Shown here in pieces: positions 6,275 through 25,244 of a DNA stretch of 64,000 nucleotides; position 1 is the first letter of the stretch; each line of letters opens with the position of its first letter. The notes beneath the pieces were generated by a model. That model made no database searches and was not told where the DNA came from. It worked only from the letters and a program-made list of their open reading frames with translations. Position numbers and translations under genes: made by a program. Origin of the DNA: Cycloclasticus sp. (GTDB lineage Bacteria; Pseudomonadota; Gammaproteobacteria; Methylococcales; Cycloclasticaceae); the NCBI GenBank assembly GCA_002733135.1, contig NVUJ01000003.1, positions 4,035 through 68,034 on the forward strand, written 5' to 3'.

Positions 6275-6285
6275 CAGCACATCAA

Positions 6286-8396: not shown

Positions 8397-8397
8397 A

Positions 8398-9528: not shown

Positions 9529-9557
9529 CGTTTTATCCGGATGAATAAGGTGCTTTA

Positions 9558-10694
9558 ATGAAGAGCATAGCGATAATTTGTTTTGACTTTCATGCCACGC
9601 ATATTCGAAGTCAACCTTGGCATATGGCTCATGGGCTAGCTAAGGGGTTAAAAAAAGAAAGCTTTAACGTAAAATTATTTACTGATGTTGAAGATGTTCC
9701 TGATACAGACTACCCAATACAATCAGTAAAAGCACTTTTTCATAGGTCCCAACCAAGTTCTTGGTTGCTGAATGCTTTGAATGATTATCAACCGAGTTCA
9801 ATATTTGTATTTATTGGAAGTCACGAGCTTTTGACACCTAAAAGATTTCATTTACTAGGTGCTGTTCAGTTAGTTATATGTAATGCGCGATTTACATTGT
9901 CAGAGTTGTTTCGTATATCAGCAAGTGATTATTGGGCTGAGTGGACGTTGCTTATTCGACCCTTGTTAGCAAGTTTAATTCCTAGTTGGGTATTGAGGTA
10001 TGGATTTAGAAAGTCAGGAGCGGAAAATCTTGTGTACGTGAGCGTTGCAGCGCAACAACGATACAGTAATTTGGGGCTGCCAAAGGGTACAGTGCTAATT
10101 CCAGCGGTGGATAAAGAACATTATCAGGTGAATTATGAGCATCCCAAAGCTGTGGGTGCTGAGAGAGTTATTTGCTATTTTGGACCGCCCCTGCAGCTGA
10201 GGGGTGTCAATTTAACAATTGGGGCCTTCGAAGTTGCTGCAGAAAAAGAGAGGAATCTTCGCTTGAAATTGCTGCTTCGATTAAATGGAGAGCCTTACAC
10301 CAAGGCTAAATTCGACAACTTATCTAAAAAAGCATCTCAAAGTAAATACTCAGATAGGATTGAAGTGGTGGCTAAACACATGTCAGCATCTGAGTTAAAG
10401 GCAGAGTTACAACATGTTGATGTTTTCTTACTGCCTTTTAAGCTTACGGTCTCAGACTCGCCATTGGTCACTATTGAAGCTGGACTCGCTGGGAAACCCA
10501 TTGTGGCCTTGAAAACACCGGGGGTGGATGAGTTCATAAAAATATTTGGAGGAGTCTCTGTGCCAAATGCAGGTGATTTGGGGGAGGGAATACTTAAAGC
10601 GTTAACAATTAACACGCGGATAAATGATGCAGAGCAGTGGGTTGATTGGTCTTCCAGTGTTAAACCCTTGATTGATAAACTGTTGCATGAATAA
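9558..10694 (+). CDS. Glycosyltransferase, GT-B/GT4-like
   Basis: A 378-residue protein with two Rossmann-like halves. The C-terminal half shows the weakly conserved donor region LLPFKLTVSDSPLVTIEAGL followed by AGKPIVALKTPGVDEFI. The N-terminal half (IICFDFHATHIRSQPWHMAH) fits an acceptor domain. It is divergent from the textbook GT4 pattern, so the family call is less certain than for its neighbours. It probably adds one sugar of the repeat unit. It overlaps the next gene by 8 bp. Confidence 0.75.
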   Translation: MKSIAIICFDFHATHIRSQPWHMAHGLAKGLKKESFNVKLFTDVEDVPDTDYPIQSVKALFHRSQPSSWLLNALNDYQPSSIFVFIGSHELLTPKRFHLLGAVQLVICNARFTLSELFRISASDYWAEWTLLIRPLLASLIPSWVLRYGFRKSGAENLVYVSVAAQQRYSNLGLPKGTVLIPAVDKEHYQVNYEHPKAVGAERVICYFGPPLQLRGVNLTIGAFEVAAEKERNLRLKLLLRLNGEPYTKAKFDNLSKKASQSKYSDRIEVVAKHMSASELKAELQHVDVFLLPFKLTVSDSPLVTIEAGLAGKPIVALKTPGVDEFIKIFGGVSVPNAGDLGEGILKALTINTRINDAEQWVDWSSSVKPLIDKLLHE

Positions 10695-11316
10695 GCCACA
10701 GAATATTTGTTTATTAGGTGTGGATGGCAGTGGGAAAACAGCGCTAGCAACAGCCTACCTTAAAAGATTAAATAAAACTGGGGAGCCTGCCGTTCATGTT
10801 TGGAGCAGATATAGGAATTATCTTTCCAAACCTTTCTTAGGTGTAATGAGGTTGACGGGTCATAACAGAAAAGAAATGATTGACGGTGTAAAGATTGGGT
10901 TTCATGACTTTTCAGAAAACAGGTTTATTGCTTATTCTTTTTTAATGTTCCAATGGCTCGATCAAGTTATTGATATTGTTTATCGTTTTAGAAGAAGGCG
11001 TGGGAATATTGTTTGTGATAGGTGCGTAATCGATACATTGGTCGACTTATGCGTGGACACAGGTATGGATGGTTATATTTTTGGGCGTTATGGGAAATCT
11101 CTAATAACTCTTATGCCTAAAGGTACAGTGTATTTTATTGTAAATCGTAACAAAAGCTTAGTTTTTAATAGCCGCCCTGATGTAAGAGCAGATAAAAATT
11201 ATGATAGGCGTATTAAGCTTTATTCGCGAGCAGCCAAAATATTTGGATTAATTTTTCTAGATAACGATGGTTCTATTGAATACTCAATAGAGCAAATTGT
11301 TAAACAAGTGGATTAA
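10687..11316 (+). CDS. P-loop kinase, thymidylate-kinase-like
   Basis: Starting from ATG 10687, which overlaps the previous stop, the product has 209 residues. It has a clear Walker A motif at the N-terminus (LLGVDGSGKTALATAYL) and a kinase-like NIVCDRCVIDTLVDL motif near residue 110, equivalent to the DR-containing motif of thymidylate kinases. True TMP kinases are housekeeping enzymes; paralogues like this inside EPS loci have no assigned substrate. Phosphorylation of a sugar or lipid precursor is possible, but I make no specific claim. Confidence 0.7.
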   Translation: MNKPQNICLLGVDGSGKTALATAYLKRLNKTGEPAVHVWSRYRNYLSKPFLGVMRLTGHNRKEMIDGVKIGFHDFSENRFIAYSFLMFQWLDQVIDIVYRFRRRRGNIVCDRCVIDTLVDLCVDTGMDGYIFGRYGKSLITLMPKGTVYFIVNRNKSLVFNSRPDVRADKNYDRRIKLYSRAAKIFGLIFLDNDGSIEYSIEQIVKQVD

Positions 11317-11318
11317 GA

Positions 11319-12419
11319 ATGACGATATATGTTTTTTATAATAATGACCCGCTTGCAAGTGATCAAGGTGGAGGTGCAGAGCATCTTAGAGGGATTTATA
11401 GAGCGCTTAACCGCACTGATAAATCTTTTAAATTGGTATCATCTAAAATGCAAGATAAGTATGACTCTAAGGATGTTGAATATATATCTAACGGTGCAAA
11501 TATAATGTTGTTTTTTATGGCTATGTTTGTTTGGTTCTTTAAGAACAAGTCAAGTTTAACTGAATCTGATGTATTTCACTTTCATAGGAACTATACCGTT
11601 TGGCCAAAATTCTTAGTTATTGGTAAAAGAGGGAAAACGATAATTACCTATCATAATCATACGGGGAAGATTCTAGAGGATTGGTTTGGGGGTTGGGTAG
11701 CAAGTGTGGTTCGTAATATTATGTTGCGTTTCGAACGGTCGGCAGTGTCGCTAGTAGATAGAGTGATATTTGTTTCAGATGGAGTGCGGCAACAACTTAA
11801 GAGAGAAGTTATTCGAAGTAACTACAATAAAACAGTAGTAATTCCGGCTGCTTTTGATTCTTCTGCTTTTGAAGGTTGTTCTACTGCTGAAGCTGAATTG
11901 GCTAACAGAATTGTGGTAATAGGCCGTTTAGCCAGTATTAAAAACTTTAATCTAGCCATTGAAACTTTAGAATTTCTTTGTGCAGAAGGGCATCAATATT
12001 ATCTTACTATTGTTGGTGATGGTGAGTTGCGCGATGAGCTAGAGAAAAAAGTGGGCGCTAGTAAATTTAAAGAAAATATTATTATGTACGGTTTGGCAGA
12101 GCATAGCGAAATTAGAGAAATTATAGCTAAACATGGAATAGTGATGGTTAGCAGTAAATTTGAAGCATCCCCGACAATTGTAAAAGAAGGAATTGCCTCA
12201 ATGCGTCCAATTGTCACAACCGATGTAGGTGATGTGGATTTGTGGATAAAAGAGGGTGTTAATGGCTACATTTGTAATCATACCGCGGAATCTCTGGGCT
12301 CTGCTATTAAGCAAGCATCTAATTTAATACTCGAAGGAGGTTACAAACAATCAGTTGATTTAAATGAATTTTCTGAGTTGACAATCATGAATAAACTTAT
12401 AGAGCAATATACGTTCTAA
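11319..12419 (+). CDS. Glycosyltransferase family 4
   Basis: A 366-residue GT-B transferase. The N-terminal half begins IYVFYNNDPLASDQGGGAEH, a typical acceptor-side glycine loop. The C-terminal half has RIVVIGRLASIKNFNLAIET and the donor-binding SKFEASPTIVKEGIASMRPIV with the spaced glutamates of GT4 enzymes. It probably adds one sugar of the EPS repeat unit. It begins 2 bp after the kinase-like gene's stop. Confidence 0.87.
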   Translation: MTIYVFYNNDPLASDQGGGAEHLRGIYRALNRTDKSFKLVSSKMQDKYDSKDVEYISNGANIMLFFMAMFVWFFKNKSSLTESDVFHFHRNYTVWPKFLVIGKRGKTIITYHNHTGKILEDWFGGWVASVVRNIMLRFERSAVSLVDRVIFVSDGVRQQLKREVIRSNYNKTVVIPAAFDSSAFEGCSTAEAELANRIVVIGRLASIKNFNLAIETLEFLCAEGHQYYLTIVGDGELRDELEKKVGASKFKENIIMYGLAEHSEIREIIAKHGIVMVSSKFEASPTIVKEGIASMRPIVTTDVGDVDLWIKEGVNGYICNHTAESLGSAIKQASNLILEGGYKQSVDLNEFSELTIMNKLIEQYTF

Positions 12420-12445
12420 TTTTATTTTTTATATCTTTTAATGTG

Positions 12446-13765
12446 ATGCGAGTGTCAACCGTGAAAATAAATACTAAGTTACTAAATTTATTTAATATGG
12501 GGAGTGGTCGAGTTATGCAGGCGCTACTTTCTTTTTTGATTGTGACAGTGCTTGCAAGAGAGTTAGGTCCAGATCAGTTGGGAATATATTCAATTGTGTT
12601 AGCTATATTTGCTTATGGCTCGCATGTCAGTGAATTTGGTATGCGTTCGATTGTCATACGGGATGGGAATTTACCAAATAAAAAGATACATAGTGAAGCA
12701 GGCCTGTATATTTGTCTGAGACTAATTACAGCAACTTTAGTGAGTGTCTCTACTTATTTTGTAGGCGTGATCTTTTTCCCTGAATACGCAGTACTTGCTG
12801 GGTTGGTAATGATCAGTACGTTCTTTATCGCTATGCAACTTGATTGGCTGTTGCTTGTTTCAAAACGATATTTGGCGGCTTCATGGGTGCTCGTTATACG
12901 CCCAATATTTTATTTAGCAGCCGTGTTGTTACTAGTATGGTTTGAACAGGTAAGCTTAATAATGTTGATACTAGCATTTGTTTCATCATGGGGGGCCCTA
13001 GCTATATTCTCATGGATTATAGTGGGCCAATCAGTCCCAAAATTCACAAGAGCTGGCTTACTAAATAAAAAGGGTCTGCGTCTTCTGAAAGAAGGATATC
13101 CTATTCTTGGTGTGGCTTTAGTAGGGCAGGCAATACAAAGTGCTGATTTAATATGGATTGGCGGTGTTTACGGAGTTGTAGATGCAGGACATTATTATGT
13201 GGCTAGTGCAATAATTGTTGCTGCTATGGTGTTTGCTAACGCTATGACTCAAATATCGTTGGGTGAGATGTCAAAATACATAGATGATAAAGGTGCGTTT
13301 TCCAAACAGTTAAAATCGGATATAAGTTTGATTTTATGGGTAGGGGTCTTTATTTCTATCGGTTTGATTTATATTATTAGTCCACTGATTCCGATGGTTT
13401 TCGGTTATGAGTACAAAGTATCTGGTGACTTAATAGTATATTTTGTACCGTATTTTTTTTTAAGCCATGTGACGGGTATTTTGTATTCGAGCATCATTGT
13501 TATTGGCAAACAAAAGCAGTTACTTAGAATAAATATCGTCCGTGCATTTTTACTATTAAGCGGGTTATTCATAGTGTCATATAGTGATAATCTTGGATAT
13601 ATAGCCTTGATGAAGGCGCTTGTTGAGCTCGTGATTGTCATAGTTATTCGGCAATATTACTCGTATGGATATCTAAGAGGGATATTAGGAGCTATCTTTT
13701 GGCCAGGACTTATAGTTGCTATTGGTATCGGGTTAAGGGGTCTTGGTGATTATAATGTTTCTTAA
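12446..13765 (+). CDS. Wzx-type polysaccharide flippase
   Basis: A membrane protein of about 439 residues with some twelve hydrophobic helices, starting NMGSGRVMQALLSFLIVTVL, the usual opening of the Polysacc_synt/MATE-like flippases. It would translocate lipid-linked repeat units across the inner membrane. A GTG at 12443 adjoins ATG 12446 and either may be used. It overlaps the polymerase gene by 11 bp. Confidence 0.88.
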   Translation: MRVSTVKINTKLLNLFNMGSGRVMQALLSFLIVTVLARELGPDQLGIYSIVLAIFAYGSHVSEFGMRSIVIRDGNLPNKKIHSEAGLYICLRLITATLVSVSTYFVGVIFFPEYAVLAGLVMISTFFIAMQLDWLLLVSKRYLAASWVLVIRPIFYLAAVLLLVWFEQVSLIMLILAFVSSWGALAIFSWIIVGQSVPKFTRAGLLNKKGLRLLKEGYPILGVALVGQAIQSADLIWIGGVYGVVDAGHYYVASAIIVAAMVFANAMTQISLGEMSKYIDDKGAFSKQLKSDISLILWVGVFISIGLIYIISPLIPMVFGYEYKVSGDLIVYFVPYFFLSHVTGILYSSIIVIGKQKQLLRINIVRAFLLLSGLFIVSYSDNLGYIALMKALVELVIVIVIRQYYSYGYLRGILGAIFWPGLIVAIGIGLRGLGDYNVS

Positions 13766-14981
13766 ACAAAGGAATTTCGTATATTATTTCTGGCTGTTAC
13801 TATTTATATTGCCTGCATTTTTCCCGCAATATTTATTGGAAAACTTTGAGCTAAGGAGTCTGGCTTTAGCCATTTTTTTTGTGCCAGTTGGTGTGTTCGT
13901 TCTTACTTCATTTTTTACGGGTTGGGCGGTATGGCGTTCACATAGGGTAATCTTATTAATGATTTCATCTGCTCTAGCAATTATTTTTATATTAGATTTT
14001 TTTGATGGAGAAATATATTTAAAAGGGTATAAGGTCTTAATACTTTTATTAATTCCCTTCGTTGTGTGTAAGTATTCAGAGCGATTTGATTCAGATACTG
14101 TGTGTAAGTTAATTTGGTATTTGTTTTTGACTTACATAGTGCTTACATTCTCAAGTTACTTGGCAGGCCATTCTCGAGAAGTCATTGTAGGGACGTTATA
14201 TAAAAGACTAGATATTACCGGCTCACTCACAGCACATGCTGTTTTGTGCTCCTTATTTATCATGTTCACCTTGGCTTGGTTCAACACAGCAAAGTATATT
14301 GCCCCCCGATGGTTCATGCTGTGCATGTTGTTCGTAGCGTTATATATGTTGTTTAAAACAGGGAACAGACAATCGTTATTGGTCCTTTTTATTTTTGGTT
14401 TTGTATATACGTTAGCTTTTCCAAAGAAATTGCAATCTATTCTATACGCTTCATATGGATTGATGGGAATGGCGGGTGTTTTTTTTATGTACACAATCTT
14501 TATAGATTCGAATTTATTTTATAGATTATTTCTTTTAGACGAAAGAGGTTTTAGTTCTGGAAGACAAGAGGCAATCATTTATTGGATATCCCAAGTTGAG
14601 AATGTGTTTACTGGTCTGGGCTTAGGGAATACAGCTGAATTCCTTGTAAATCTGCGAGGTGAACTTTATACGTATGAGAATTTCCCCCATAATGAGTTAA
14701 TTCGCTTCTACGTGGAGGGCGGTATTTTTGGATTGCTGTTTATCCTTTTGTTGTTAGGGTACTTCTTTTATTGGAGTTATGTAGTAATAAAATTTGATAA
14801 AAATAGAATGCGAGTACTATATGTAACGGCAGTTTTTTCTACGGTATTTATTAGTTCGGTTCTAGATAATTTGATTTTTGATATGTATAAGTCAAACGCT
14901 TATTTAATGATCATACTAATGATGTGGTCTTTTTATAAGAGGGACACAGAAGAGGCTAAAAGAGGTCGTCAAAGTGACTAG
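13755..14981 (+). CDS. Wzy-like O-antigen polymerase
   Basis: A polytopic membrane protein of 408 residues from ATG 13755 with ten or more helices and the O-antigen ligase/polymerase family features. These include a periplasmic loop after a conserved arginine region (FKTGNRQSLLVLFIFGFVY) and the late motif NFPHNELIRFYVEGGIFGLL. Placement right after the flippase argues for the repeat-unit polymerase rather than a ligase. In-frame TTG/GTG codons lie just upstream; the ATG overlapping the flippase stop is preferred. Confidence 0.82.
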   Translation: MFLKQRNFVYYFWLLLFILPAFFPQYLLENFELRSLALAIFFVPVGVFVLTSFFTGWAVWRSHRVILLMISSALAIIFILDFFDGEIYLKGYKVLILLLIPFVVCKYSERFDSDTVCKLIWYLFLTYIVLTFSSYLAGHSREVIVGTLYKRLDITGSLTAHAVLCSLFIMFTLAWFNTAKYIAPRWFMLCMLFVALYMLFKTGNRQSLLVLFIFGFVYTLAFPKKLQSILYASYGLMGMAGVFFMYTIFIDSNLFYRLFLLDERGFSSGRQEAIIYWISQVENVFTGLGLGNTAEFLVNLRGELYTYENFPHNELIRFYVEGGIFGLLFILLLLGYFFYWSYVVIKFDKNRMRVLYVTAVFSTVFISSVLDNLIFDMYKSNAYLMIILMMWSFYKRDTEEAKRGRQSD

Positions 14982-15666
14982 CATTCAGCCAAAAAAAAAG
15001 AAAGAATTTGGCTGGATTCCTAAGTCACCTCTTTTGTTGAAGGCAATGCAGAGCAACGCGGGCATATTAATAATCAATTGGGCATTTCAAGGAATGCGAG
15101 GAATGCAGAGCAAAGAACTATCTTTCAGAATTATTCTAGAATTGATTATGGGAACTTTGTTTTATGCGATGATTTTTGGTTCGAAACTTGATGTTGGTGG
15201 GGCTTTGTTGCTTTCCCTTTTTATGGCACATTCGGTAAATTGGCTCTTAAATACTCATTTGTGGGTTTGTATTCGTTACATGAAGTTTTATAGGCGTGAC
15301 CCAGATGCTTTACGTGATTTTTTGTGTAGAGTGTCTGGAGAAATAGAGCGAAAGCGGTGGCTTAAAGAAGCGGTGTGTATCGGTTCTATAGGTGATAAAG
15401 AAGACGTGACTTCGTGGCGGTCAGACATCGATTTAAGACTTTTTTTCAAACTAGGATTAATGAATTATTTAAGGTTAAATTTTTACTTAATTTATCTACG
15501 CACTAAAGCATTGTTTCTTATAATTCCACTTGATTTATATGCGTACAATGACATTGAGTACCTTAAAAATTTTAAAAAAAACGAGGGCATGTTACTCATT
15601 AAAGACGAGCAAGGGGCTATTACTCAAATGTATCCTGAAAAGCTAGTGAGCACTCGGAATGAATAA
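14974..15666 (+). CDS. Membrane protein with nucleotidyltransferase-like motif
   Basis: A 230-residue protein from GTG 14974, overlapping the polymerase by 8 bp. One or two hydrophobic segments lie near residues 50-90 (IILELIMGTLFYAMIFG; ALLLSLFMAHSVNWLLN). A cytoplasmic part follows with GSIGDKEDVTSWRSDIDLRL, which resembles the GS-x(n)-S-D-x-D signature of Pol-beta-type nucleotidyltransferases. I do not recognise a named family. Modification of a lipid-linked sugar or a protein partner by nucleotidyl transfer is only a hypothesis. It overlaps the PssD-like gene by 8 bp, so it is clearly part of the EPS operon. Confidence 0.6.
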   Translation: MTSIQPKKKKEFGWIPKSPLLLKAMQSNAGILIINWAFQGMRGMQSKELSFRIILELIMGTLFYAMIFGSKLDVGGALLLSLFMAHSVNWLLNTHLWVCIRYMKFYRRDPDALRDFLCRVSGEIERKRWLKEAVCIGSIGDKEDVTSWRSDIDLRLFFKLGLMNYLRLNFYLIYLRTKALFLIIPLDLYAYNDIEYLKNFKKNEGMLLIKDEQGAITQMYPEKLVSTRNE

Positions 15667-16132
15667 TTGTAATCAAGCTGAAAATAGAAAAGTTTGTTTG
15701 GCGTACTCTGCAGGCGGTCATTACGCAGAATTAATTAAAGCCTTAGATGGAGTTGAATTTTCAAATGTATACCATGTAACTTTCGATTCGGGGCATTTTA
15801 ATAAAGAACATGGGTGTAATAGATTTTTTCTTACTCACCCTAGAAAAAAAGTTGGAAGAACGTTATTAAATGCAATTGAAGCATTACGTTTGCTTTATAA
15901 ACAACGACCTAAAATCATCATATCTACAGGGGCTGACGTAACTGTCCCAACAATTATCTTAGGAAAGCTGTTATTTGGTTGTAAGGTTATTTTTATTGAA
16001 TCTGCTGGCGATATTACTCCTACGCTCACTGGGAAAATTGTATATAGGTTTTGCGACTTGTTTATTGTGCAATGGTTAGAGCATAAGAAACATTATCCAA
16101 ATGCTGTTCTATGTGAAGGTCTCCTGTTGTGA
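15659..16132 (+). CDS. PssD/Alg14-like glycosyltransferase subunit
   Basis: A 157-residue protein homologous in pattern to Alg14/PssD, the membrane-anchoring acceptor half of a split GT-B enzyme. It has VCLAYSAGGHYAELIKAL at the N-terminus, IISTGADVTVPTIILGKLL in the middle and VIFIESAGD before the C-terminal part. It needs the catalytic partner encoded next, with which it overlaps by 4 bp (ATGA-type coupling). Confidence 0.87.
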   Translation: MNNCNQAENRKVCLAYSAGGHYAELIKALDGVEFSNVYHVTFDSGHFNKEHGCNRFFLTHPRKKVGRTLLNAIEALRLLYKQRPKIIISTGADVTVPTIILGKLLFGCKVIFIESAGDITPTLTGKIVYRFCDLFIVQWLEHKKHYPNAVLCEGLLL

Positions 16133-16596
16133 TCTACTTGACAGTAGGTACATATCCGCTTGGGTTTGATCGATTGGTGATGGCGGTTGATGAAATGTGC
16201 TGTAGGCATGGAGTTGAATGTGTCGCTCAAATATCTGGCGGTAAATATAAGCCTAAACACATGGCGTACCAAAAGTTCTATTCTATCGATAAGCAGTCAG
16301 CTTATATTGAAAAAAGTCAATTTGTAATTACACATGGTGGTTTTGGTGTGATTGGTGATGTACTTTGTAAAGGTAAGCCTTTGTTAGTTTTTCCAAGGCC
16401 TCCCGAAGAAGGCCCTAATGACCAAAGGCCAGTTGTGAAACGACTGTATGAACGGTATGGGTTTTGTGTAAGTAATAACCTCGAAGAGTTCAGCAGCCAT
16501 TTTGTTGCGATGCTGAATGATGATAGTGGTAGGCGTGAATATCTCCTAGAAACGAATGTACCTGCGATTATTGGCGATTTTCTAAATCAAATATGA
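16129..16596 (+). CDS. PssE/Alg13-like glycosyltransferase catalytic subunit
   Basis: A 155-residue protein corresponding to the C-terminal, donor-binding half of a GT28-type transferase. It has MIYLTVGTYPLGFDRLV, the QFVITHGGFGVIGDVLCKGKP motif and PLLVFPRPPEEGPNDQRP. Together with the PssD-like protein it should form one functional transferase. The start codon is an ATG reading GTG-ATC in the sequence context, overlapping the upstream stop. Confidence 0.87.
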   Translation: MIYLTVGTYPLGFDRLVMAVDEMCCRHGVECVAQISGGKYKPKHMAYQKFYSIDKQSAYIEKSQFVITHGGFGVIGDVLCKGKPLLVFPRPPEEGPNDQRPVVKRLYERYGFCVSNNLEEFSSHFVAMLNDDSGRREYLLETNVPAIIGDFLNQI

Positions 16597-16619: not shown

Positions 16620-17465
16620 ATGGCTGAGCTAGAAACTATATCTATCATAATTGTGGACTTCTTCAAGGCGGGCAGGGTTGTTGACAATGTTAAGGGCGCG
16701 TTGTCACAAAAAGGTGCTTTTGAATTAGAAGTAATAGTTATAGATAACTCGTGTGATAAAGATAATCGAAATAAGTTGCAAAATTTGGTTGAGCTGTCCG
16801 ATGTAACTGTCATTTTTAATGATGCGAATGTAGGTTATGTGGAAGCATGTAACCAAGGGTTTGATTTAGGTTCTGGTGAGTACATTTTCTTGGTTAATCC
16901 AGATATTGTATGGAAGAGTAACGATATTATTTCGGATATTATTTCTACCTTTAATGAGGCTAAAGATATTGGCGTTATCGGTGTTCGTCAAGAAAATGAT
17001 GATGGGTCCACACCAGAAATTGTGAGACGGTTTCCTAATATTGTTGCACAGATTTCCCGTAGAACATTCCTTCGTCGTTTGCCCTGGTTTGAAAGCAGAA
17101 CAGCTGAATATGAGGTGGTAGATTTTGATTACTCAATATCTACAGATGTTGATTGGGTACAATCCTCATTTATGTGTGTTAAACGAAATGTTTGGCTTGA
17201 TGTTAATGGTTTAGATTCGCGATTCTTTTTGTTTATGGCTGATCCAGATATTTGTTATCAAACTTGGCTAAAAGGTTACCGTGTATTTTATCAAGCGGAT
17301 ATTCTTGTAGGGGCAGATGGTAAGCGTTGTAGCGCAGGTGGGTTGGGCGAATTTTTTACTAACCAAGCTATTCGATATCACCTTCGTGATGCAATTCATT
17401 ATCAGTTAAAATACTTATTTAAAGCAAAAACTCGTTCGAAAATAAATTTGATTAGTGATTGTTGA
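16620..17465 (+). CDS. Glycosyltransferase family 2 (rhamnosyltransferase-like)
   Basis: A 281-residue GT-A enzyme with the N-terminal donor fold (ISIIIVDFFKAGRVVDNV), a DXD-like region in GEYIFLVNPDIVW and the late acidic motif FFLFMADPDICYQTWLKGYR. The arrangement resembles dTDP-rhamnose-using GT2 enzymes, and the rhamnose pathway genes start 84 bp further on, which supports rhamnosyl transfer by context only. Confidence 0.85.
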   Translation: MAELETISIIIVDFFKAGRVVDNVKGALSQKGAFELEVIVIDNSCDKDNRNKLQNLVELSDVTVIFNDANVGYVEACNQGFDLGSGEYIFLVNPDIVWKSNDIISDIISTFNEAKDIGVIGVRQENDDGSTPEIVRRFPNIVAQISRRTFLRRLPWFESRTAEYEVVDFDYSISTDVDWVQSSFMCVKRNVWLDVNGLDSRFFLFMADPDICYQTWLKGYRVFYQADILVGADGKRCSAGGLGEFFTNQAIRYHLRDAIHYQLKYLFKAKTRSKINLISDC

Positions 17466-17549
17466 GCGCTTATATAGTAAACAGACCCGGGTGTTGTAAA
17501 GGAAATTATGCGCATCGGTGGTAATTTAAAAAAATATAAAAGAGGGCTT

Positions 17550-18431
17550 ATGAAAGGGATAGTATTAGCTGGAGGAAGTGGAACGCGTTTGTACCCAATT
17601 ACGCGTGGTGTTTCTAAACAATTGGTGCCACTTTACGATAAGCCGATGATTTATTACCCAATATCTGTATTGATGTTGGCGGGTATCACTGACATTCTCA
17701 TTATTACGACACCTGAAGACCAAAGTAACTTCCAACGTTTGTTAGGCGACGGTGCGGAATTGGGCGTGCAATTTAATTATGTGGTGCAGCCTTCTCCAGA
17801 TGGTTTGGCACAGGCATTTATTTTGGGTGAAGAGTTTATTGGCGAAGATGACGTGTGTTTGGTGTTGGGTGATAATATTTATCACGGCCATGATTTAACG
17901 CGCTTGTTCGCTAAGGCCGTGAGTAACGTCAGCGAACAAGGTTGCGCGACAGTGTTTGGCTATCGCGTTGCTGATCCAGAGCGCTATGGTGTGGTGGAGT
18001 TTGACAGCAAAGGTAAAGCCATTAGCCTAGCTGAAAAGCCTAAACAACCAAAGAGTAATTATGCAGTAACTGGGTTGTATTTTTACCCTAATGATGTGAT
18101 TAAAAAAGCCAAAGAGGTAGTGCCGTCTGAGCGGGGTGAATTAGAGATTACCTCAGTTAATCAATTGTATTTAGACGAACAACGTTTAAAGGTGGAGCTG
18201 ATGGGGCGTGGTTATGCTTGGTTAGATACAGGTACACACGAAAGCCTTTTGGAGGCGGCACAATTTATTGAGATTATAGAAAAGCGTCAAGGTTTAAAAG
18301 TAGCTTGTTTGGAGGAAATTGCGTTTGAGCAAGGTTATATCTCTAGAGAACAATTGATTGAACTTGCGCAACCGTTAGTTAAAAACCAATACGGACAGTA
18401 CCTGTTGAGGTGTGCTGAAGAAGGGCGTTAA
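17550..18431 (+). CDS. rmlA: Glucose-1-phosphate thymidylyltransferase
   Basis: From ATG 17550 (ribosome site AGAGGG upstream) the protein has 293 residues, the normal RmlA length. It starts [18 protein letters not shown] and carries the signature [27 protein letters not shown] and [14 protein letters not shown]. It forms dTDP-glucose from dTTP and glucose-1-phosphate, the first step to dTDP-L-rhamnose. An in-frame ATG 42 bp upstream is less likely, because it adds residues absent from the family. Confidence 0.95.
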
Positions 18432-19007
18432 GTGCAGTTTATAAAACAATCAATTGCTGATATTTTAGTTATTGAGCCAACAGTTCATGGTGATTCGCGT
18501 GGGTATTTTGTAGAAACGTTTCGACAAGATTTGCTTGATAAGGCCTTGGGTTATACGGTTAGCTTTGTGCAGGATAACGAGTCAAAATCGTCGAAAGGGG
18601 TTTTAAGAGGCTTGCACTTTCAATTAGCGCCCCACGCGCAAAGTAAATTAGTAAGGGTGGTAGACGGCAGCGTTTTGGATGTGTCTGTGGACATTCGCGT
18701 GGGAAGCCCAAGCTTCGGTCAGCACGTTGCTATTGAACTTTCGGCTGACAATAAGCGCCAGATTTTTGTACCGCGCGGCTTTGCACATGGCTTTGTGGTG
18801 CTCAGTGAGAACGCTACGTTTGCTTACAAGGTTGATAATTACTATTCACCTGAATGTGATCGTGGTTTAGCCTTTGATGACGAGCAATTAAATATAGATT
18901 GGCGATTAGGTAAGGATGAATTGCTGTTATCTGATAAGGATGCAAAGCAACCTTCGTTTGCAGATCTGCCTGAGTGTTTTAATATCACACAAAATTACTA
19001 TGAGTGA
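18432..19007 (+). CDS. rmlC: dTDP-4-dehydrorhamnose 3,5-epimerase
   Basis: A 191-residue cupin enzyme starting at GTG 18432, immediately after the rmlA stop. Conserved elements are HGDSRGYFVETF, KGVLRGLHFQLAPHAQSKLVRVV (with the active-site His) and FVPRGFAHGFVVLSE. It catalyses the third step of dTDP-rhamnose synthesis. It overlaps rmlD by 8 bp. Confidence 0.95.
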   Translation: MQFIKQSIADILVIEPTVHGDSRGYFVETFRQDLLDKALGYTVSFVQDNESKSSKGVLRGLHFQLAPHAQSKLVRVVDGSVLDVSVDIRVGSPSFGQHVAIELSADNKRQIFVPRGFAHGFVVLSENATFAYKVDNYYSPECDRGLAFDDEQLNIDWRLGKDELLLSDKDAKQPSFADLPECFNITQNYYE

Positions 19008-19893
19008 GATTAGTTCGATATTAGTAACGGGCGGTAGTGGGCAACTCGGCCAGTCTATACGACGTTTGATTACGAAAAATGCGGATTACAAGGTCTCATT
19101 TCCAAAGCGCCAACAGTTAAACCTTGAAGACTCACAAAGCATTAGAGACTATTTTAATCAGCATACAGTTGATTTGATTATTAATTGTGCCGCATACACG
19201 GCAGTTGATAAGGCAGAGTCTGAACCGGAGCAAGCCGACCAATTAAATCATTTAGCCGTTAAGCGGCTGGCAAAAATGGCTGTTGAGCAAAATGCCAAGC
19301 TGATTCATATTTCAACGGATTATGTGTTTGCAGGTATCAGTTGTAAGCCTTATGTAGAATCTGATGATGTGGCCCCACAAGGCGTGTATGGTTTAACGAA
19401 ACTTAAGGGAGAGCAGGCGATACTTTCCATCATGCCCGATAATGCCGTTATTATCCGCACAAGCTGGCTGTATTCTGAATTCGGCAATAATTTTGTTAAA
19501 ACGATGCTGAAGCTAGGCGAGCAAAGAAATGAGTTAAATGTCGTATCTGACCAATTAGGTACGCCGACTTATGCAGGTGATTTAGCCCAAGCGATTATTT
19601 GTATTGTGCAAAGTGAAGCGTTTAACCAAACAAACTTTAAAAGCAGTATTTACCACTACAGTAATGAAGGCGTGTGCAGTTGGTATGATTTTGCTAAGAC
19701 TATATTTGAATTAAGTGGCATTGATTGTTCTGTTAGTCCTATTGCAAGCAAAGACTACCCAACGCTTGCAAAGCGCCCGAATTACAACGTGCTAAACAAA
19801 GCTAAAATAAAACAAGCGTACGCATTGGATGTGCCTTACTGGAAGGAGTCTTTGCAGAGTTGCTTACGGGCGATTCAGGGGAAAGCATCATGA
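19000..19893 (+). CDS. rmlD: dTDP-4-dehydrorhamnose reductase
   Basis: From ATG 19000, inside the end of rmlC, the product has 297 residues. It is a short-chain dehydrogenase with nucleotide-binding [22 protein letters not shown] and the YGLTKLKGE catalytic Tyr/Lys pair. It performs the last reduction to dTDP-L-rhamnose. A longer in-frame start 84 bp upstream would lie within rmlC and adds a non-family extension. Confidence 0.94.
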
Positions 19894-20936
19894 AAACAAT
19901 ATTGCTAACGGGTGGGGCTGGTTTTATTGGCTCAGCCGTTATACGGCACCTTATTAATGACACAAATGCTACGGTTATTAATGTAGATAAGTTGACCTAT
20001 GCAGGTAACTTAGAGTCTCTTGCGCTTGTAAGTGATAGTGAGCGGTATACGTTTGAGCAAGTTGATATTTGTGATGCCGCTGAGATTAAACGGGTGTTAA
20101 ATCAGCATCAGCCCGACATAATGATGCACCTAGCGGCGGAATCGCACGTGGATCGCTCTATCGATGGGCCAGGTGAATTTATTCAGACCAATATTGTGGG
20201 CACTTATAACTTGCTAGAGCAGGCAAGGCATTATTGGGCCGCATTAAATGGCGATAAAAAGGCTAGTTTTAGATTCCATCATATTTCAACTGATGAGGTG
20301 TATGGCGATTTAGAAGGCACTGATGATTTGTTTACCGAGGAAACGCCCTACGCGCCCAGCTCGCCCTATTCTGCCAGTAAAGCGAGCTCAGACCACCTAG
20401 TAAGGGCTTGGCAACGCACCTATAACTTTCCAGCGGTCATTACTAACTGTTCTAATAACTACGGCCCTTATCATTTTCCCGAGAAATTAATTCCGTTGAT
20501 GGTTTTAAATGCCTTAGCGGGAAAGCCATTGCCCGTTTATGGCAAAGGGCATCAAATTCGTGATTGGTTATACGTAGATGACCACGCTCGCGCATTAGTA
20601 AAAGTAGCAACAGATGGCGCGTTGAATGAAACATATAATATTGGTGGGCATAATGAAATGCAGAATATCGATGTTGTACGAACCATTTGCGATTTATTAG
20701 AAGAACTGGTTCCCAACAAGCCTGCAGGAGTGATGGCCTATCGGGATTTAATCACCTACGTAACAGATCGAGCTGGGCATGATGTACGATATGCGATTGA
20801 TGCCAGTAAAATACAGAAAGAACTGGGTTGGATGCCCCACGAAACCTTTGACAGTGGCATTCGCAAAACGGTGAAATGGTATTTAGCTAATCAGCAGTGG
20901 TGTCAGCATGTGCAAGACGGTAGCTACCATAAATAG
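19890..20936 (+). CDS. rmlB: dTDP-glucose 4,6-dehydratase
   Basis: From ATG 19890, a four-base overlap with rmlD, the enzyme has 348 residues. It has [26 protein letters not shown] and [11 protein letters not shown] (Tyr/Lys), and [16 protein letters not shown]. It performs the second step of the pathway. The complete pathway is present in the order A-C-D-B, rather than the enterobacterial B-D-A-C, with all four genes touching or overlapping. Confidence 0.95.
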
Positions 20937-20984: not shown

Positions 20985-22151
20985 ATGAATAAACTACCGC
21001 TCGATAATAGTTATGCTTTGCTAATGGTTTTTTTGGCGCCACAAAAAACCGAGGCAAGGTTGTTACAGATACAGCAAGCAGCGGAAAATAATCAGATTGT
21101 TTGGGAAGAGCTGCTTTATCAGGCAAATATTCAATTATGTACCCCTCTTTGGTTTAGCCAGTTACGTAAAGACGGTTTGCTAGAGCTATTGCCTAGCGAC
21201 CTTGTTGAATACATATCGGAAATTTATAACGCCAATGAAGAGCGGAATATTCAAATGCGTTTGGCACTTATTGAATTGTTGTCTGCTCTCAATGCAGCAT
21301 CTATTGATTCTATACTTCTAAAGGGGGCGTCTACATTTTGCGATAACTTGTATGGTGATTTAGGTAGCCGTGTAATGGGAGATTTAGATGTGCTAGTGCC
21401 CGCTGATAAGGTTGAACAAAGCCAACTGATTTTAGACAAATTAGGTTACGTTGCCATACCTAATAAGGGCATGGAGCTTGAAGGGCTGCCAACTGATGTC
21501 AGACACCATCAGTTGCTTCAACATTACATTCCTAATACGCCCGTGGTGGTTGAGATTCACTTTAAATTGTCTTATGCAATGGTGGGGCGCATGTTGCCTG
21601 TTGAGACTGCGTGGAAAAACAGAGTGACGGTATGTTTACAAACGGAGGCTACGTCAGTCCTTTCACCAAGTGATAAGTTAATACTCAATACAGGCCATGC
21701 TTTAGTGCCCCACCGTGAGTACATTAGGGGATATATATCACTGCTTCAATTAACGGAATTTACAAATCTTACTGTGCGTTATGGTGATGAAATCTCAAAG
21801 CGTGAATGGCTGGCAGTGGCTGCTAAGTTTGGTTTATCGGTGGCGTTTGCCACGTATGCTATGTTGTCTAGCCGATACATGGACGGGGACTTTGTGCGTT
21901 CTGAGGGGTCACTAACCTTTAATGAGAAACGAATTCTTTTTCTGGGGCGCTATCTCGAGAAGGTAGGGATTGGTGCTACACCTCTTGTTTTAAGGGGTAG
22001 GAATTTATTTTATCAAGGGTTGTATCTATTGAAGCTACCTTTTTGGGTATGGATAAACCCATGCTATGTCGAGGGTTGGAAAAACTTGCCTGCAAGGCTA
22101 AGACTGCTTTTTGTGAAGCTGCTCAGTTTTAAGAGCTGGGGTAAGGTCTGA
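20985..22151 (+). CDS. Nucleotidyltransferase family protein (NTP_transf_5-like)
   Basis: A 388-residue protein with a central Pol-beta-type nucleotidyltransferase motif, SILLKGASTFCDNLYGDLG then SRVMGDLDVLVPADKVEQS (about residues 110-145), as in the NTP_transf_5 (PF14907) family. A long helical region follows. The substrate is unknown. The same family recurs beside HPr-kinase-like genes in some lasso-peptide and EPS clusters. Here it converges with such a kinase, 11 bp end to end, and follows rmlB by 48 bp. That arrangement supports a peptide or glycan modification role without proving it. Confidence 0.8.
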   Translation: MNKLPLDNSYALLMVFLAPQKTEARLLQIQQAAENNQIVWEELLYQANIQLCTPLWFSQLRKDGLLELLPSDLVEYISEIYNANEERNIQMRLALIELLSALNAASIDSILLKGASTFCDNLYGDLGSRVMGDLDVLVPADKVEQSQLILDKLGYVAIPNKGMELEGLPTDVRHHQLLQHYIPNTPVVVEIHFKLSYAMVGRMLPVETAWKNRVTVCLQTEATSVLSPSDKLILNTGHALVPHREYIRGYISLLQLTEFTNLTVRYGDEISKREWLAVAAKFGLSVAFATYAMLSSRYMDGDFVRSEGSLTFNEKRILFLGRYLEKVGIGATPLVLRGRNLFYQGLYLLKLPFWVWINPCYVEGWKNLPARLRLLFVKLLSFKSWGKV

Positions 22152-22162
22152 TGCTTTCTTGG

Positions 22163-23359
22163 CTACGCAATGCTATTTAGTGCATTCATGGCGTCATTAA
22201 TATCCGAATACTGTAACGAGTAACACGGTAATTGTTCCACTAGTGTCACGATGGATCTTATATCGTCATCATTGAGTGGTCGCCCAGATGAGCCGCATTG
22301 AAGTAATATTTTAAGGGCGTTTTGTTTATCGATAGACTCAAATAGACACGGCTTATTCTGTTGATATGTCGGAAATACAATGGCATTAATGGTGATGTTT
22401 TCTTCTATTTCCACGGGTGACTTTTTTATTGGCATGTAACGCACCCATTTTTCATCTAAACGATGGTGTTGCATGGTTGATTTTAACGTTGGGTAGTAGC
22501 CAGATAAAAAGGGTACTGAGCCACCTTTAATGCAAATTGGGAAAGGGTGGGGAATAAGCCGTTGAGTAGCTGTATCAATAATGGCGAGTTCATCTGTATG
22601 GCACCGCCATTTTTGCGTAGATAAGACAGCAGCCAGTGTGCTTTTGCCTGAGCCAGCTTCAGCCGGAAACAGCAATGTTTGACCTGTTGTTGCTGATAAT
22701 GCCGCTGAGTGAAACATTAAGGGTGGGTTGTTTAATTTAGCTTGTGCGCTGTAGCTGGTCTCAAAAAGAATGCCAAATAAATTAGGAATAACACCCTTAA
22801 GCGGTACGTTTTTTGATACGCATACATAATCGATATAAATATAGAATTGTTCATTGCCGGGGTATTTAGATGCACAGCAAGTAATAATACTTTTGGGTTT
22901 TGAGTCTTTAGCGAGGGGGATAAAAGAATCAAAAATACGTAAAAATTCTCGCTTTAGAACAATCGATTCGATAGCGATACCGAATGCTTGCGAATCGATC
23001 TGTAGAAAAATGTCAGGTAGTAAGGCCTTGTTAGCAATGAGCTTTTTGGCGGGGCTAATAGGGGTTATAAACGACTCGTAGTTAGGCTCCGTAGGAAGTT
23101 GTAGTTGGCTTTTCTCAAAAGAATCAAAGAAGCTGTCGATGTCACCTTTAGCTGTAGCTAAAGAGACAGACATTTGTTTTGCATAAAGATTGGCTAGCTC
23201 TTCGTGTGTCGCCACTTCGAATGAATTGCACCATAGGAAAGATGCGGACTGGTTTAATGCTACGACGGTTTGGTTTGCTTCATTAAAAAGTATGGGCCCA
23301 TCCGAGAACGGATGAAAAGTAAAATATTCATACGCTTCTTTTAATTTAAGAAAAGACAA
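22163..23359 (-). CDS. PqqD-like domain fused to HPr-kinase-like kinase
   Basis: A 398-residue protein. The N-terminal 90 residues look like a PqqD/RiPP-recognition fold (GPILFNEANQTVVALNQSAS then FLWCNSFEVATHEELANLYA). The C-terminal half is an HprK-related P-loop kinase with Walker A (PAEAGSGKSTLAAVL, about residue 235) and an HTDELAIIDTATQRLIPHPF strand/loop. HprK relatives phosphorylate Ser, and one lasso-peptide tailoring kinase is in this family. The upstream gene on the same strand encodes a tiny Cys/Ser/Thr-ending protein, the obvious candidate substrate. This pairing is inference. There is no HPr or PTS gene nearby. Confidence 0.78.
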   Translation of the reverse strand: MSFLKLKEAYEYFTFHPFSDGPILFNEANQTVVALNQSASFLWCNSFEVATHEELANLYAKQMSVSLATAKGDIDSFFDSFEKSQLQLPTEPNYESFITPISPAKKLIANKALLPDIFLQIDSQAFGIAIESIVLKREFLRIFDSFIPLAKDSKPKSIITCCASKYPGNEQFYIYIDYVCVSKNVPLKGVIPNLFGILFETSYSAQAKLNNPPLMFHSAALSATTGQTLLFPAEAGSGKSTLAAVLSTQKWRCHTDELAIIDTATQRLIPHPFPICIKGGSVPFLSGYYPTLKSTMQHHRLDEKWVRYMPIKKSPVEIEENITINAIVFPTYQQNKPCLFESIDKQNALKILLQCGSSGRPLNDDDIRSIVTLVEQLPCYSLQYSDINDAMNALNSIA

Positions 23360-23471
23360 TTAACTAATTCGAGGCGTTTATTATTAAAGAATTTATTGCA
23401 TTGCGATGCTTAGAGTTTTATATTTTGGCGTATGCACAATGTATTACTCTTACTCAATGAATAATAATCAA

Positions 23472-23657
23472 CTAACAGTTGGGGTGGCCAGGTGATGACG
23501 TTGGGCAGTTTTTATGGGATGCCATTGCCGATTCGCTATGAAGGATTAAGGACGTAATAGCTGGAGTAGCATAAACGGCGTATTTACTTTTTCTTAAAAA
23601 TTCGCGACGTGACTCACAGTCAGTAGCTTGAGGTGTTTCCTTTATTTTATTTTCCAT
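23472..23657 (-). CDS. Small Tat-signal peptide with Cys/Ser/Thr/Pro tail (possible RiPP precursor)
   Basis: A very small protein, 61 residues from ATG 23657 (AAAAGG eight bases upstream). In-frame ATGs at 23681 and 23687 would add 8-10 residues, and the latter has AAGGAG upstream. It has a twin-arginine motif (SRREFLRK), a short hydrophobic helix (AVYATPAITSLIL), an AMA-type cleavage site and a 15-residue tail, SHKNCPTSSPGHPNC. The tail offers two Cys plus Ser/Thr acceptors. The adjacent PqqD-kinase gene, 112 bp downstream on the same strand, suggests modification of this tail. The function is unknown, and no close family is recognised beyond similar small proteins in EPS loci. Confidence 0.55.
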   Translation of the reverse strand: MENKIKETPQATDCESRREFLRKSKYAVYATPAITSLILHSESAMASHKNCPTSSPGHPNC

Positions 23658-23772
23658 TTTTAAGCCTTTTGCTTTTTCCATCTGCATTATCCTTATACTC
23701 CTTGCTCTTCTTATTCTAGTGGAAAATGTTAAGAGTGTGTGTATTTTTAAGACCAAATCAGAATAAATAACC

Positions 23773-23903: not shown

Positions 23904-25244
23904 ATGACTTTTACTCATTCAAAATCAAGCCAACTTTTGGCTAATGCTGCGCTAGTACTGTTGGTATGGGTAACGTTGCCGCTGGGTAGTAATCGGCCTT
24001 GGTCGGCCATGTTGTTTGTGATGTTGGTGTCGATGCTATCTGGGGTGTGGGCTTGGATGGCGTGTCGGCAACCAGCCCATAAAGCTTCTCAAAAGCAAGT
24101 ATTTACGCTAGCAAAACCTTTGTTTGTACTGTTATTAGTCACCCAGCTTTGGGTGTGCGTACAGTGGTTAATGGGCTTAAGCGAAGATAGTGCTAGAACC
24201 TTTTATTACCTGCTGCTCGGTTGTGCTTATTGTTTGTTATATTTATTGATAGTTAATTTATTTACCACCCGTAAACGGCTCACTTTATTACTGTCGACGT
24301 TAATTATTAGTGGCGCATTTCAGGGGTTTTACGGCTCGCTGATGACGCTGTCGGGTATTGAGTGGGGTTTTTTTGTAGAGAAAGAGCATTATCGAGGACT
24401 GGCTACGGGTACTTTTGTTAACCGTAATCACTTGGCGGGTTATTTGGAAATGACCATCGCTTGTAGCATCGGTTTGCTGCTGGCGTTTAGAACGGGGCAA
24501 GCCTTAACCTTGCGCAACACCATTGAATTGCTGATGGGGCCGAAGGTGAAAATACGTTTGGCTTTACTGATGATGGTTATTGCGCTGGTGTTGACGCATT
24601 CGCGAATGGGCAACACGGCCTTTTTTAGTAGTTTGTTGTTGGTGGGTGGTTTATTTGTGCTGACTAATAAGCGTCATAGAAAGCGAAACAGCCTTATTTT
24701 TATTAGTATTATTTTGATTGACCTATTGGTTATCAGCCAATATTTTGGTTTGGATCAACTAAAAGAGCGCTTAGTGAATACGCGAATTAGCGATCAAGTG
24801 GTGAATGGCGAGGTGGTGCAAAAAGATAATATTGTGCGAGATGATATTGTGGTGTCTGCCTTACCCATGATTAAGCAACGCCCTTTTGTGGGTTATGGCG
24901 CAGGTTCGTTCGAGTCTACGTATCAACAATATGCGGGTGATCATATACGCATTCATTTAGACCATGCGCATAACGACTACGTGCAGTTTTTGGTTGAATT
25001 TGGGTTAATTGGTTTCGTGCCTTTGTTGTTGTTTGTTTTGATGTCCCTTTGGCATGCTTTTCAGGCTTTGCGGATGAGAGAGTCGTGGTATCGAAGTGGT
25101 GTGGGTTTTGCCGCGTCGATGGGCATAATGTCGATTTTAATCCACTCATTTACCGATTTTAACTTACAGATTCCCGCTAATGCGGCGACGTTTATTGTGT
25201 TATGCGCCATAGCGGTTTTGGCACGAACACACGTTAAGGAATAA
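23904..25244 (+). CDS. O-antigen ligase family membrane protein
   Basis: A 446-residue polytopic protein with about twelve helices and the Wzy_C/WaaL signature: LTHSRMGNTAFFSSLLLVGG in the middle and the late periplasmic DHAHNDYVQFLVEFGLIGFV (His-containing). It is the second O-antigen polymerase/ligase-like protein of the locus (the other starts at 13755). It could ligate or polymerise the EPS, or attach it to a protein or lipid acceptor. It is transcribed divergently from the small-peptide/kinase pair. Confidence 0.82.
   Translation: MTFTHSKSSQLLANAALVLLVWVTLPLGSNRPWSAMLFVMLVSMLSGVWAWMACRQPAHKASQKQVFTLAKPLFVLLLVTQLWVCVQWLMGLSEDSARTFYYLLLGCAYCLLYLLIVNLFTTRKRLTLLLSTLIISGAFQGFYGSLMTLSGIEWGFFVEKEHYRGLATGTFVNRNHLAGYLEMTIACSIGLLLAFRTGQALTLRNTIELLMGPKVKIRLALLMMVIALVLTHSRMGNTAFFSSLLLVGGLFVLTNKRHRKRNSLIFISIILIDLLVISQYFGLDQLKERLVNTRISDQVVNGEVVQKDNIVRDDIVVSALPMIKQRPFVGYGAGSFESTYQQYAGDHIRIHLDHAHNDYVQFLVEFGLIGFVPLLLFVLMSLWHAFQALRMRESWYRSGVGFAASMGIMSILIHSFTDFNLQIPANAATFIVLCAIAVLARTHVKE

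Follow-up and report, generated by a model that had tools for sequence, protein, structure and literature searches.

The cassette of three genes that closes an EPS locus in this Cycloclasticus sp. rather probably yields a small, Tat-exported phosphopeptide that works together with the EPS layer and resembles LPP, the linear phosphopeptide RiPP of Bacillota (Popov et al. 2026, PMC13381572), with the Tat signal doubling as the RiPP leader. This reading builds on the gene set, the domain types, their co-occurrence, a leader motif and a conserved junction Ser, as established by sequence comparison and statistics.

In the window, by which we mean the whole stretch of 64,000 nucleotides analysed, the Wzy-type EPS locus spans 1484-20936. 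Its first part (1484..16596, + strand) encodes the envelope and assembly components (a BBP2_2 outer-membrane protein, Poly_export/SLBB, Wzz plus an AAA domain, and CpsB/CapC) as well as a sugar-1-phosphate transferase, glycosyltransferases, a flippase, Wzy_C and an Alg14-like plus Glyco_tran_28_C pair, and is followed by a glycosyltransferase and then rmlA, rmlC, rmlD and rmlB for dTDP-rhamnose (16620..20936, +), all assigned from domain matches in scans that covered the 38 of 60 window ORFs of at least 140 aa. The rmlACDB genes directly precede the gene of an NTP_transf_5 nucleotidyltransferase (388 aa; 20985..22151, +), which converges across a gap of 11 bp with the gene of a PqqD/HprK fusion kinase (398 aa with a TTG start; 22163..23359, -), and upstream of the kinase, on its strand and 112 bp away, lies the gene of the Tat-signal peptide (69 or 61 aa; 23472..23681, -), its predicted substrate as judged from sequence and alignment. 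Beyond the peptide gene and divergent from it is found a Wzy_C protein of the O-antigen-ligase/polymerase type (23904..25244, +), which also gives a weak PEP_O_lig_1 match (E 1e-8, below the cut-off). The Tat peptide, the PqqD-HprK kinase, the NTP_transf_5 gene 11 bp from it and the position at the EPS end had all been described in an earlier sequence-only reading, and each is indeed present where that reading put it.

Two starts are available to the peptide, one beginning MENK (61 aa, reaching 23657, the end given by the sequence-only reading) and one beginning MEKAK (69 aa, reaching 23681, with AAGGAT 7 nt ahead). Either way the order is SRREFLRK, a hydrophobic core, AMA and the tail SHKNCPTSSPGHPNC, with a Ser right after AMA and a SHKNCPTSS stretch in the tail region. 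Since a Tat motif is of the SRRxFLK type, the combination of such a motif with a hydrophobic core and an AxA site makes the peptide a predicted Tat substrate, and TatC is encoded in the genome (match E 4e-68). Inside the hydrophobic core of the Tat signal lies YATPAI, which fits the published [Y/W]xxPx(hydrophobic) motif, the RRE binding site common to lasso, PQQ and LPP leaders. Matches of such peptides to the families TIGR04117, PF01281 and PF05498 were weak and are taken as chance.

The kinase combines an N-terminal PqqD/RRE domain (about residues 23-84) with a C-terminal HprK-type domain (about residues 209-396) carrying the catalytic residues H217, a Walker A motif extending to K239, and D256-E257. 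The C-terminal part matches HprK_rel_A (TIGR04352) at E 5e-29 with 101.3 bits, which is under the equivalog cut-off of 200, whereas the canonical kinase of locus L112 scores 382.8 bits, and a profile of four fused kinases finds HPr(Ser) kinase 3tqf at E 4e-5. The sequence-only reading had proposed a PqqD-like recognition domain, and this is borne out at the level of the family, since a profile of seven N-terminal domains (six fused, one separate) matches TbiB1 (E 7e-11) and TfuB1 (E 5e-9) among PDB entries and the domain is by this profile a lasso-type RRE; the window's own N-terminus, however, scores 21.1 bits against PqqD PF05402, just below the cut-off of 23.4, compared with 44.4 bits for the same domain in the homologue L104. 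The window kinase did not match PqqD_rel_X (TIGR04353) at any E up to 1, and L104 reached 21 bits against the cut-off of 35 for this family. AlphaFold models built from three-sequence alignments are of low confidence, with mean pLDDT of 43 for the kinase and 40 for the NTP protein. Kinases of this type occur in only 3 of 18 genomes of the genus at 1e-10, the window genome included; a search of genome contigs with the window kinase alone as query gave no match, and one with L104 and L105 as queries returned two loci, from the very genomes that had supplied these two. The third protein matches PF14907 with 117.4 bits (cut-off 31.2), the sole such match in this genome assembly, and its residues K113-G114, D133, D135 and E190 are conserved in an alignment of three proteins. 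Elsewhere, in locus L196, a 706-aa ORF joins an HprK-type kinase to NTP_transf_5.

The sequence-only reading presented the locus as a lone cassette, a picture that has to be given up, since the gene set recurs in relatives and is better seen as a compact variant, with its domains fused, within a wide family. A leader profile was built from 20 order-level leaders and the window peptide and applied to 59 independent class-level loci with an HprK kinase. At E <= 0.1 it picked out a Tat-like protein in 45 of them (39 at 0.001), leaving 14 without a match, whereas none of 19 control stretches of 20 kb gave one. NTP_transf_5 was likewise present in 49 of the 59 loci as against 0 of the 19 controls. 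The 59 loci are all 62 class-level kinase matches less those of genomes G000, G012 and G024, and the controls are 19 of the 20 stretches taken, the 20th being a peptide contig (L174) and hence left out. In the opposite direction, a search of 369 genomes with peptide queries alone gave 22 matches, 19 after removal of the three query sources, and an HprK-type kinase lies within about 2.5 kb of 9 of these 19, including 7 of the best 8; a Tat regex over 1.5-kb flanks misses most longer substrates. The trio of peptide, kinase and NTP_transf_5 is more than a chance neighbourhood, and co-occurrence in relatives, the absence of which would have told against the earlier reading by its own criteria, is found far beyond the controls.

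Among 25 hand-picked loci with a fused kinase, four of which (L217, L218, L220 and L222) come from one genus, the peptide is seen in 20, the NTP gene in 20 and both in 16; L033, in which no clear PqqD part can be recognized, was excluded from this set, and the L214 match, an ORF in the wrong frame, was left uncounted. The order peptide, kinase, NTP gene in one direction is found in L037, L104, L105, L107, L212, L213, L216 and L219. The peptide of L038 is a rearranged remnant, that of L221 lies 1.2 kb from the kinase on the opposite strand, that of L181 lies downstream of the NTP gene, and those of L107 and L212 have KR in place of RR. Seventeen of the 20 peptides were found by profile, seven of them having themselves contributed to the alignment from which one of the two profiles was made, and the remaining three (L107, L212 and L221) by regex and by eye. 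No peptide is visible in 5 of the 25 loci, two of which have less than 750 bp of upstream contig. EPS-type genes adjoin several fused loci, as exemplified by ten flank proteins, which were picked as EPS-like or trio-adjacent and do not amount to a rate. On plasmids, a search with one short peptide as query gave no match, and records with a kinase relative numbered 25 and 27, of which three were inspected. Named records with a locus of this kind include Methylobacterium tardum DSM 19566 (plasmid pMt-1) and Thiohalobacter, the latter with the trio of L175.

The leader motif and the junction Ser are both conserved, though to differing extents in differing sets. In 20 of 20 aligned short Tat peptides (that of the window and 19 others, four of which, L140, L144, L145 and L149, have no kinase in the stretch taken) a Y or W stands three positions before an invariant Pro, and the RR is invariant as well. 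In the fused-locus peptides the same position holds Y or W in 10 of 20 and V, I, F, C or A in the other 10, and a strict [Y/W]xxP rule was set aside accordingly; in longer substrates a small or aliphatic residue mostly stands here, and the Pro itself persists in 17 of the 18 that were aligned (185-247 aa). Of 29 short peptides, 27 have a Ser no more than five residues from an AxA-type site, as a raw count for which sites were assigned loosely, the nearest Ser was taken and the four peptides from stretches without kinase were included. Furthermore, all of 18 longer substrates, hand-chosen as one type, share three junction Ser; this set excludes the long type with a signal ending in TLRSGAA or TLHSG.

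The closest published parallel is LPP, and as far as the accessible parts of its description (PMC13381572) go, the two systems share an RRE, an HprK-like kinase, a short precursor with a YxxP motif, a target Ser just after the leader (predicted here), independence of a lasso cyclase, a polysaccharide-locus setting and an NTP transferase in the cluster, the latter being PF14907 here and LppN in LPP. On the same partial basis they differ in several ways. The RRE of LPP is discrete, and LPP clusters also include a SipW-like leader peptidase and an MsbA-like exporter, whereas the present kinase carries its RRE as a fused domain and the predicted leader is a Tat signal; LPP is reported as restricted to Bacillota, while the present relatives are Pseudomonadota. 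Neither a SipW-like signal peptidase nor an MsbA-like exporter was found among the 38 of 60 window ORFs scanned. Of the LPP precursor consensus YxxPxVLxHQxIxFETxxS, again taken from the accessible text, the window peptide has only the YxxPxI part, as YATPAI, and HQxIxFET is absent; a whole-word search of the main text of the LPP paper (PMC13381572) finds neither "Tat" nor "proteobacteria". The phosphorylated lasso peptides, in so far as they are covered by the available part of PMC9266682 (paeninodin with PadeK, ThcoK, and pseudomycoidin with PsmK/PsmN), likewise depend on an HprK-like Ser kinase, as predicted here, and on an RRE with [Y/W]xxP leaders, but their target Ser is at the C-terminus, whereas here it is predicted near the leader junction. 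In pseudomycoidin the Ser is phosphorylated and a hexose then added, and the nucleotidyltransferase homologue is linked to this hexose on the phosphate, with a host glycosyltransferase left open (PMC9266682, same part).

A second parallel is the HPr-rel-A system of NCBIfam (TIGR04352 plus TIGR04353), which as here pairs an HprK-related kinase A with a PqqD-family "peptide chaperone" and, in the loci examined, mostly also has NTP_transf_5 and a Tat-like substrate. Its PqqD protein and kinase are separate and its substrates mostly of about 130-280 aa, as opposed to the fusion and the 61-69 aa peptide of the window, whose kinase, at 101 bits, stays below the family cut-off. The canonical loci L035 and L036 adjoin an ATPase and a UDP-sugar dehydrogenase, genes which we take to be those familiar from XrtA loci; an exosortase (XrtA) system in the present genome was set aside, there being no PF09721 match. 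The sequence-only reading had suggested that the cassette would be a new RiPP-like class, and this stands only in part, since LPP is published and the HPr-rel-A kinase and PqqD chaperone are already named in NCBIfam, whereas the predicted use of a Tat signal as leader looks new.

In the mechanism that we favor, the RRE domain of the kinase would grip the Tat signal at YATPAI in its hydrophobic core, and the kinase domain would phosphorylate a Ser just past the signal cleavage site, most likely the one right after AMA or else one in SHKNCPTSS, in analogy with LppK, which phosphorylates core Ser3 of LPP (PMC13381572, in the part accessible). NTP_transf_5 may then put a nucleotide or a sugar on that phosphate, although this is the weakest step, because deletion of lppN brought no change in the published LPP work (same source and part). 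The peptide would presumably then be passed to Tat and lose its signal, so that the modified tail reaches the periplasm or the EPS, where it may have a role in the EPS layer. A single sequence, the Tat signal, would in this way serve both as leader peptide and as export tag, and gripping it would hold back the unmodified peptide.

An alternative reading is Tat proofreading, of the kind known from the maturation chaperones of redox Tat proteins: the RRE-kinase would be a Tat-signal chaperone, phosphorylation would only time release, and the exported peptide would carry no special modification. The location of the motif inside the hydrophobic core speaks for this, since RRE binding should therefore compete with the Tat receptor, and so does the retention of the Pro in nearly all the aligned longer substrates. 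A pure chaperone, however, needs neither the Ser kept at the cleavage site of short and long substrates nor an NTP_transf_5 partner in most of the class-level loci, and we consider this explanation unlikely. Still less credit is due to the notion that kinase and NTP gene act on some other target, be it an EPS precursor, a glycan or a regulator, with the Tat peptide a neighbour that has a separate job. The kinase does sit in an EPS locus and a fifth of the fused loci lack a visible peptide, but the association of peptide and kinase is far above controls in both search directions, and the fused lasso-type RRE is of a domain kind published to bind leader peptides.

Finally, the locus might be a decayed lasso or LPP cluster in which cyclase, peptidase and exporter have been lost and production has ceased. 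The earlier claim that the lasso cyclase/protease pair is absent is strengthened for the protease, since the assembly, 83% complete, contains no match to the B2 leader protease PF13471, and an intact lasso cluster was set aside on this ground; for the cyclase, of the Asn-synthase type, it holds within the 38 of 60 window ORFs scanned, among which none was found. These absences would suit decay, yet all three ORFs are intact, their catalytic residues are conserved, and this reduced set is found again across many families of Pseudomonadota, which makes decay highly improbable.

The phosphopeptide reading may extend beyond this locus. We give about even chances to a class of RiPP-like systems, widespread in Pseudomonadota, whose leader is the Tat signal itself: a lasso-type RRE, whether fused to the HprK-type kinase or encoded next to it, would bind the hydrophobic core of the signal, Ser at the junction would be phosphorylated, and NTP_transf_5 would then nucleotidylate or glycosylate them before Tat export of the peptide or protein into the EPS. 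All of HPr-rel-A would then belong to this class, its substrates ranging from 57 to about 280 aa. No joint treatment of RiPP leader recognition and Tat export came up in the open-access literature searched, and the two fields would become joined if this is true. The orphan but common family of HprK-related kinase A and its PqqD partner gains a concrete candidate substrate in the adjacent Tat-like protein, with the junction Ser as the predicted modification site, and this suggests a route in which the Ser is modified before export and the peptide then becomes an anchor or partner of the exopolysaccharide.

All three genes that the sequence-only reading had grouped as a cassette are indeed present in the window as intact open reading frames, namely an NTP_transf_5 gene (20985-22151, plus strand), a kinase in which a PqqD-type leader-peptide recognition domain (RRE) is fused to an HprK-type domain (22163-23359, minus strand) and a Tat-signal peptide (23472-23681, minus strand). 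The kinase starts 112 bp past the end of the peptide gene, whose strand it shares, and converges with the NTP_transf_5 gene across a gap of 11 bp. On their left the three genes are flanked by a Wzy-type EPS locus with BBP2_2, Poly_export, Wzz + AAA, CpsB/CapC, a sugar transferase, glycosyltransferases, a flippase, Wzy_C and rmlACDB, and on their right by a gene of the Wzy_C ligase type. Inside the EPS locus Alg14-like and Glyco_tran_28_C genes adjoin at 15659-16596, and three ORFs at or inside it (954-1427, 6247-6966 and 14974-15666) gave no Pfam match at 0.001. In the source assembly, which is 83% complete at 1.76 Mb, there is a single kinase of the HprK type along with one NTP_transf_5 gene and TatC, and a search of the same assembly gave no match to an exosortase or a lasso B2 protease.

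The N-terminus of the window kinase matches PqqD weakly, at 21.1 bits against a cut-off of 23.4, but the match is clear in L104, a locus from another genome (44.4 bits). A profile of seven such N-terminal domains, six fused and one separate, found its best matches in TbiB1 (E 7e-11) and TfuB1 (5e-9), both lasso RREs, and further ones in 9x8z (PqqD family), 9x90 (lasso PqqD chaperone) and PqqD (4e-3). The C-terminus is HprK-like (TIGR04352, E 5e-29), and a profile built from four fused kinases matched the HPr(Ser) kinase 3tqf at E 4e-5. H217, a Walker A motif through K239 and D256 are kept. The window kinase has a glutamate at position 257, as do those of L104, L105 and L107; phosphorylating lasso kinases carry a His-Lys-Asp-Asp set (PMC9266682). 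In the NTP_transf_5 protein K113-G114, D133, D135 and E190 are conserved among three aligned sequences.

With the window's genome counted each time, an HprK-type relative is present at order level and below in 44 of 101 genomes (1e-10), at class level in 59 of 369 (1e-12) and at phylum level in 87 of 398 (1e-15). With a leader profile trained on 20 order-level leaders and that of the window, a Tat-like protein was detected in 47, 45 and 39 of 59 class-level kinase loci outside the training genomes (452,825 bases) at E <= 10, 0.1 and 0.001, respectively, but in none of the 19 controls, each a 20-kb stretch of a genome of that kind, even at E 10. NTP_transf_5 was found in 49 of these loci against none of the controls, and together with the leader in 40, which bears out the co-occurrence in relatives that the sequence-only reading had proposed as a check. 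At 0.1 the profile detects no leader in 14 loci; several of these are short contigs, and in two the leader is visible on inspection (L110 at E 5.2, and L107 with KR). In the reverse direction, a search of 369 genomes with a profile built solely from five short peptides gave 22 matches in 19 genomes (E <= 0.01), three of these matches being the query sources, and an HprK-type kinase lies within about 2.5 kb of nine of the 19 others (genomes G340, G175, G383 with three in a row, G416, G266, G136 on contig C77, and G458), among them seven of the best eight. Five kinase-distant matches are Tat-like proteins on other contigs of kinase-bearing genomes (G136:C104, G384, G283, G449, G354), two longer ones (G194, G344) look like MsrP, those in G339 and G359 look like chance, and the peptides of G148, a genome without a kinase match at 1e-12, are look-alikes. 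The three tandem peptides of G383 (L098: 4852-5052, 5336-5572 and 5821-6084) have a G-S-P junction and are flanked by an HprK-type kinase on one side and a separate PqqD gene on the other. Another HprK-type kinase has as neighbours two RR proteins in tandem (L126:1252-2167), which contain a WTRPVVDSVVLPAHA stretch and end in long poly-Thr tails.

Fused kinases were found in 25 loci, including L181 and also L142, in which the domain order is less clear; 20 of them have a short Tat-like peptide close to the kinase and 20 have NTP_transf_5, the two occurring together in 16. The 20 peptides include one 1.2 kb from the kinase on the opposite strand (L221) and one that appears as a rearranged remnant (L038:1278-2721), where another N-terminus precedes the AWTPPAM core and the end of the kinase differs from that of its relatives. 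No peptide was found in L031 and L106, whose upstream contig measures only 398 and 727 bp, or in L214, L217 and L222. Eight loci (L037, L104, L105, L107, L212, L213, L216 and L219) have the order peptide, kinase, NTP in one direction, and the natural fusion of an HprK-type kinase (residues 79-298) with NTP_transf_5 (341-681) in a single 706-aa ORF (L196:1267-3387) argues that the two act in one pathway. Named records include MAGs of Thiohalobacter sp. (L175) and a gammaproteobacterium (L176) and, from the Alphaproteobacteria, an Ensifer adhaerens plasmid (L181), in which kinase and NTP_transf_5 are followed by a 99-aa Tat-like peptide ORF (6098-6397) that is without annotation in the record, and Methylobacterium tardum plasmid pMt-1, in which a 94-aa Tat-like ORF (L179:4649-4933; GRRSALKAMGAVAAYTAPVLLA) directly precedes a fused kinase annotated as 'PqqD family peptide modification chaperone', the peptide being missing from the self-described incomplete PLSDB gene table. 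The EPS genes of the window are of the same kinds as those beside other fused kinases, for example BBP2_2, Poly_export and Wzz (L216), BBP2_2 (L212), an rmlA-like nucleotidyltransferase, rmlC and rmlD (L218), a sugar transferase (L214) and a glycosyltransferase (L221), while L104 has an acyltransferase in place of such genes.

RR and one proline are invariant in 20 aligned short peptides, and the residue three before this proline is Y in 19 and W in one (YATPAI in the window), although this uniformity is overstated, since the seeds whose similarity guided the collection themselves carried Y or W. The motif is not universal: among the 20 peptides of fused loci, 10 have Y or W at this position and the other 10 have V, I, F, C or A, and in the longer substrates that were aligned a small or aliphatic residue is usual there, with the proline kept in 17 of 18. 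The motif recalls [Y/W]xxPx[L/V/I/A/F/Y], which is bound by most discrete lasso RREs and common to the leaders of PQQ and of the linear polyphosphorylated peptides (LPP) of Bacillota, and in which pull-down, mutation and NMR showed Y versus W to determine specificity (PMC13381572). In the peptides studied here the motif sits within the hydrophobic core of a Tat signal.

A serine lies at most five residues from the AxA-type site in 27 of 29 short peptides, the exceptions being L104 and L093, often in a G-S, S-P or S-G context. In canonical HPr-rel-A loci, which have a separate PqqD and kinase A, 18 aligned substrates of one type (185-247 aa; L112:5211-5879, L108:2805-3515, L088, L092 and 14 others) have a Tat-like signal and, after it, a C..S...S.N.S stretch, of which the cysteine, the asparagine and three serines right behind the signal are invariant in all 18 (e.g. 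CTLSGMMSGNLS), and usually G-x-[ST]-P-G-[YF]-W. A serine beside the signal junction is the likely modification site. The LPP kinase adds one to four phosphates to core Ser3 (PMC13381572), and PsmK phosphorylates a serine of pseudomycoidin (PMC9266682). As for the nucleotidyltransferases, the homologue PsmN has been linked to hexoses on the pseudomycoidin phospho-serine, a host enzyme being a possible alternative (PMC9266682), and deletion of lppN, the LPP NTP transferase gene, left the products unchanged in a heterologous host (PMC13381572), so that a modification step by NTP_transf_5 is only tentative.

A kinase and a PqqD chaperone of an 'HPr-rel-A system' already have names in NCBIfam, and no paper on this system by name was found in the open-access literature; nor was a report joining Tat signals to RRE-kinase systems found in a search covering mainly open-access literature and few preprints or subscription papers. 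The twenty short peptides scanned gave two hits to TIGR02811 (formate dehydrogenase region TAT target), one to a general NCBIfam TAT model and single weak ones, without bearing, to PF05498 and PF10399. For the long substrates of L112, L108 and L020 there was no hit to any NCBIfam or Pfam family (threshold 0.01 for the former two). The core of the original proposal, a peptide served by an RRE-kinase, stands and its mechanism is likely, but the genes do not form a separate cassette, being members of a family that is much wider. Each part is of a known kind, and the nearest published system is LPP; the new element would be that a Tat signal serves as the leader while RRE and kinase are fused.
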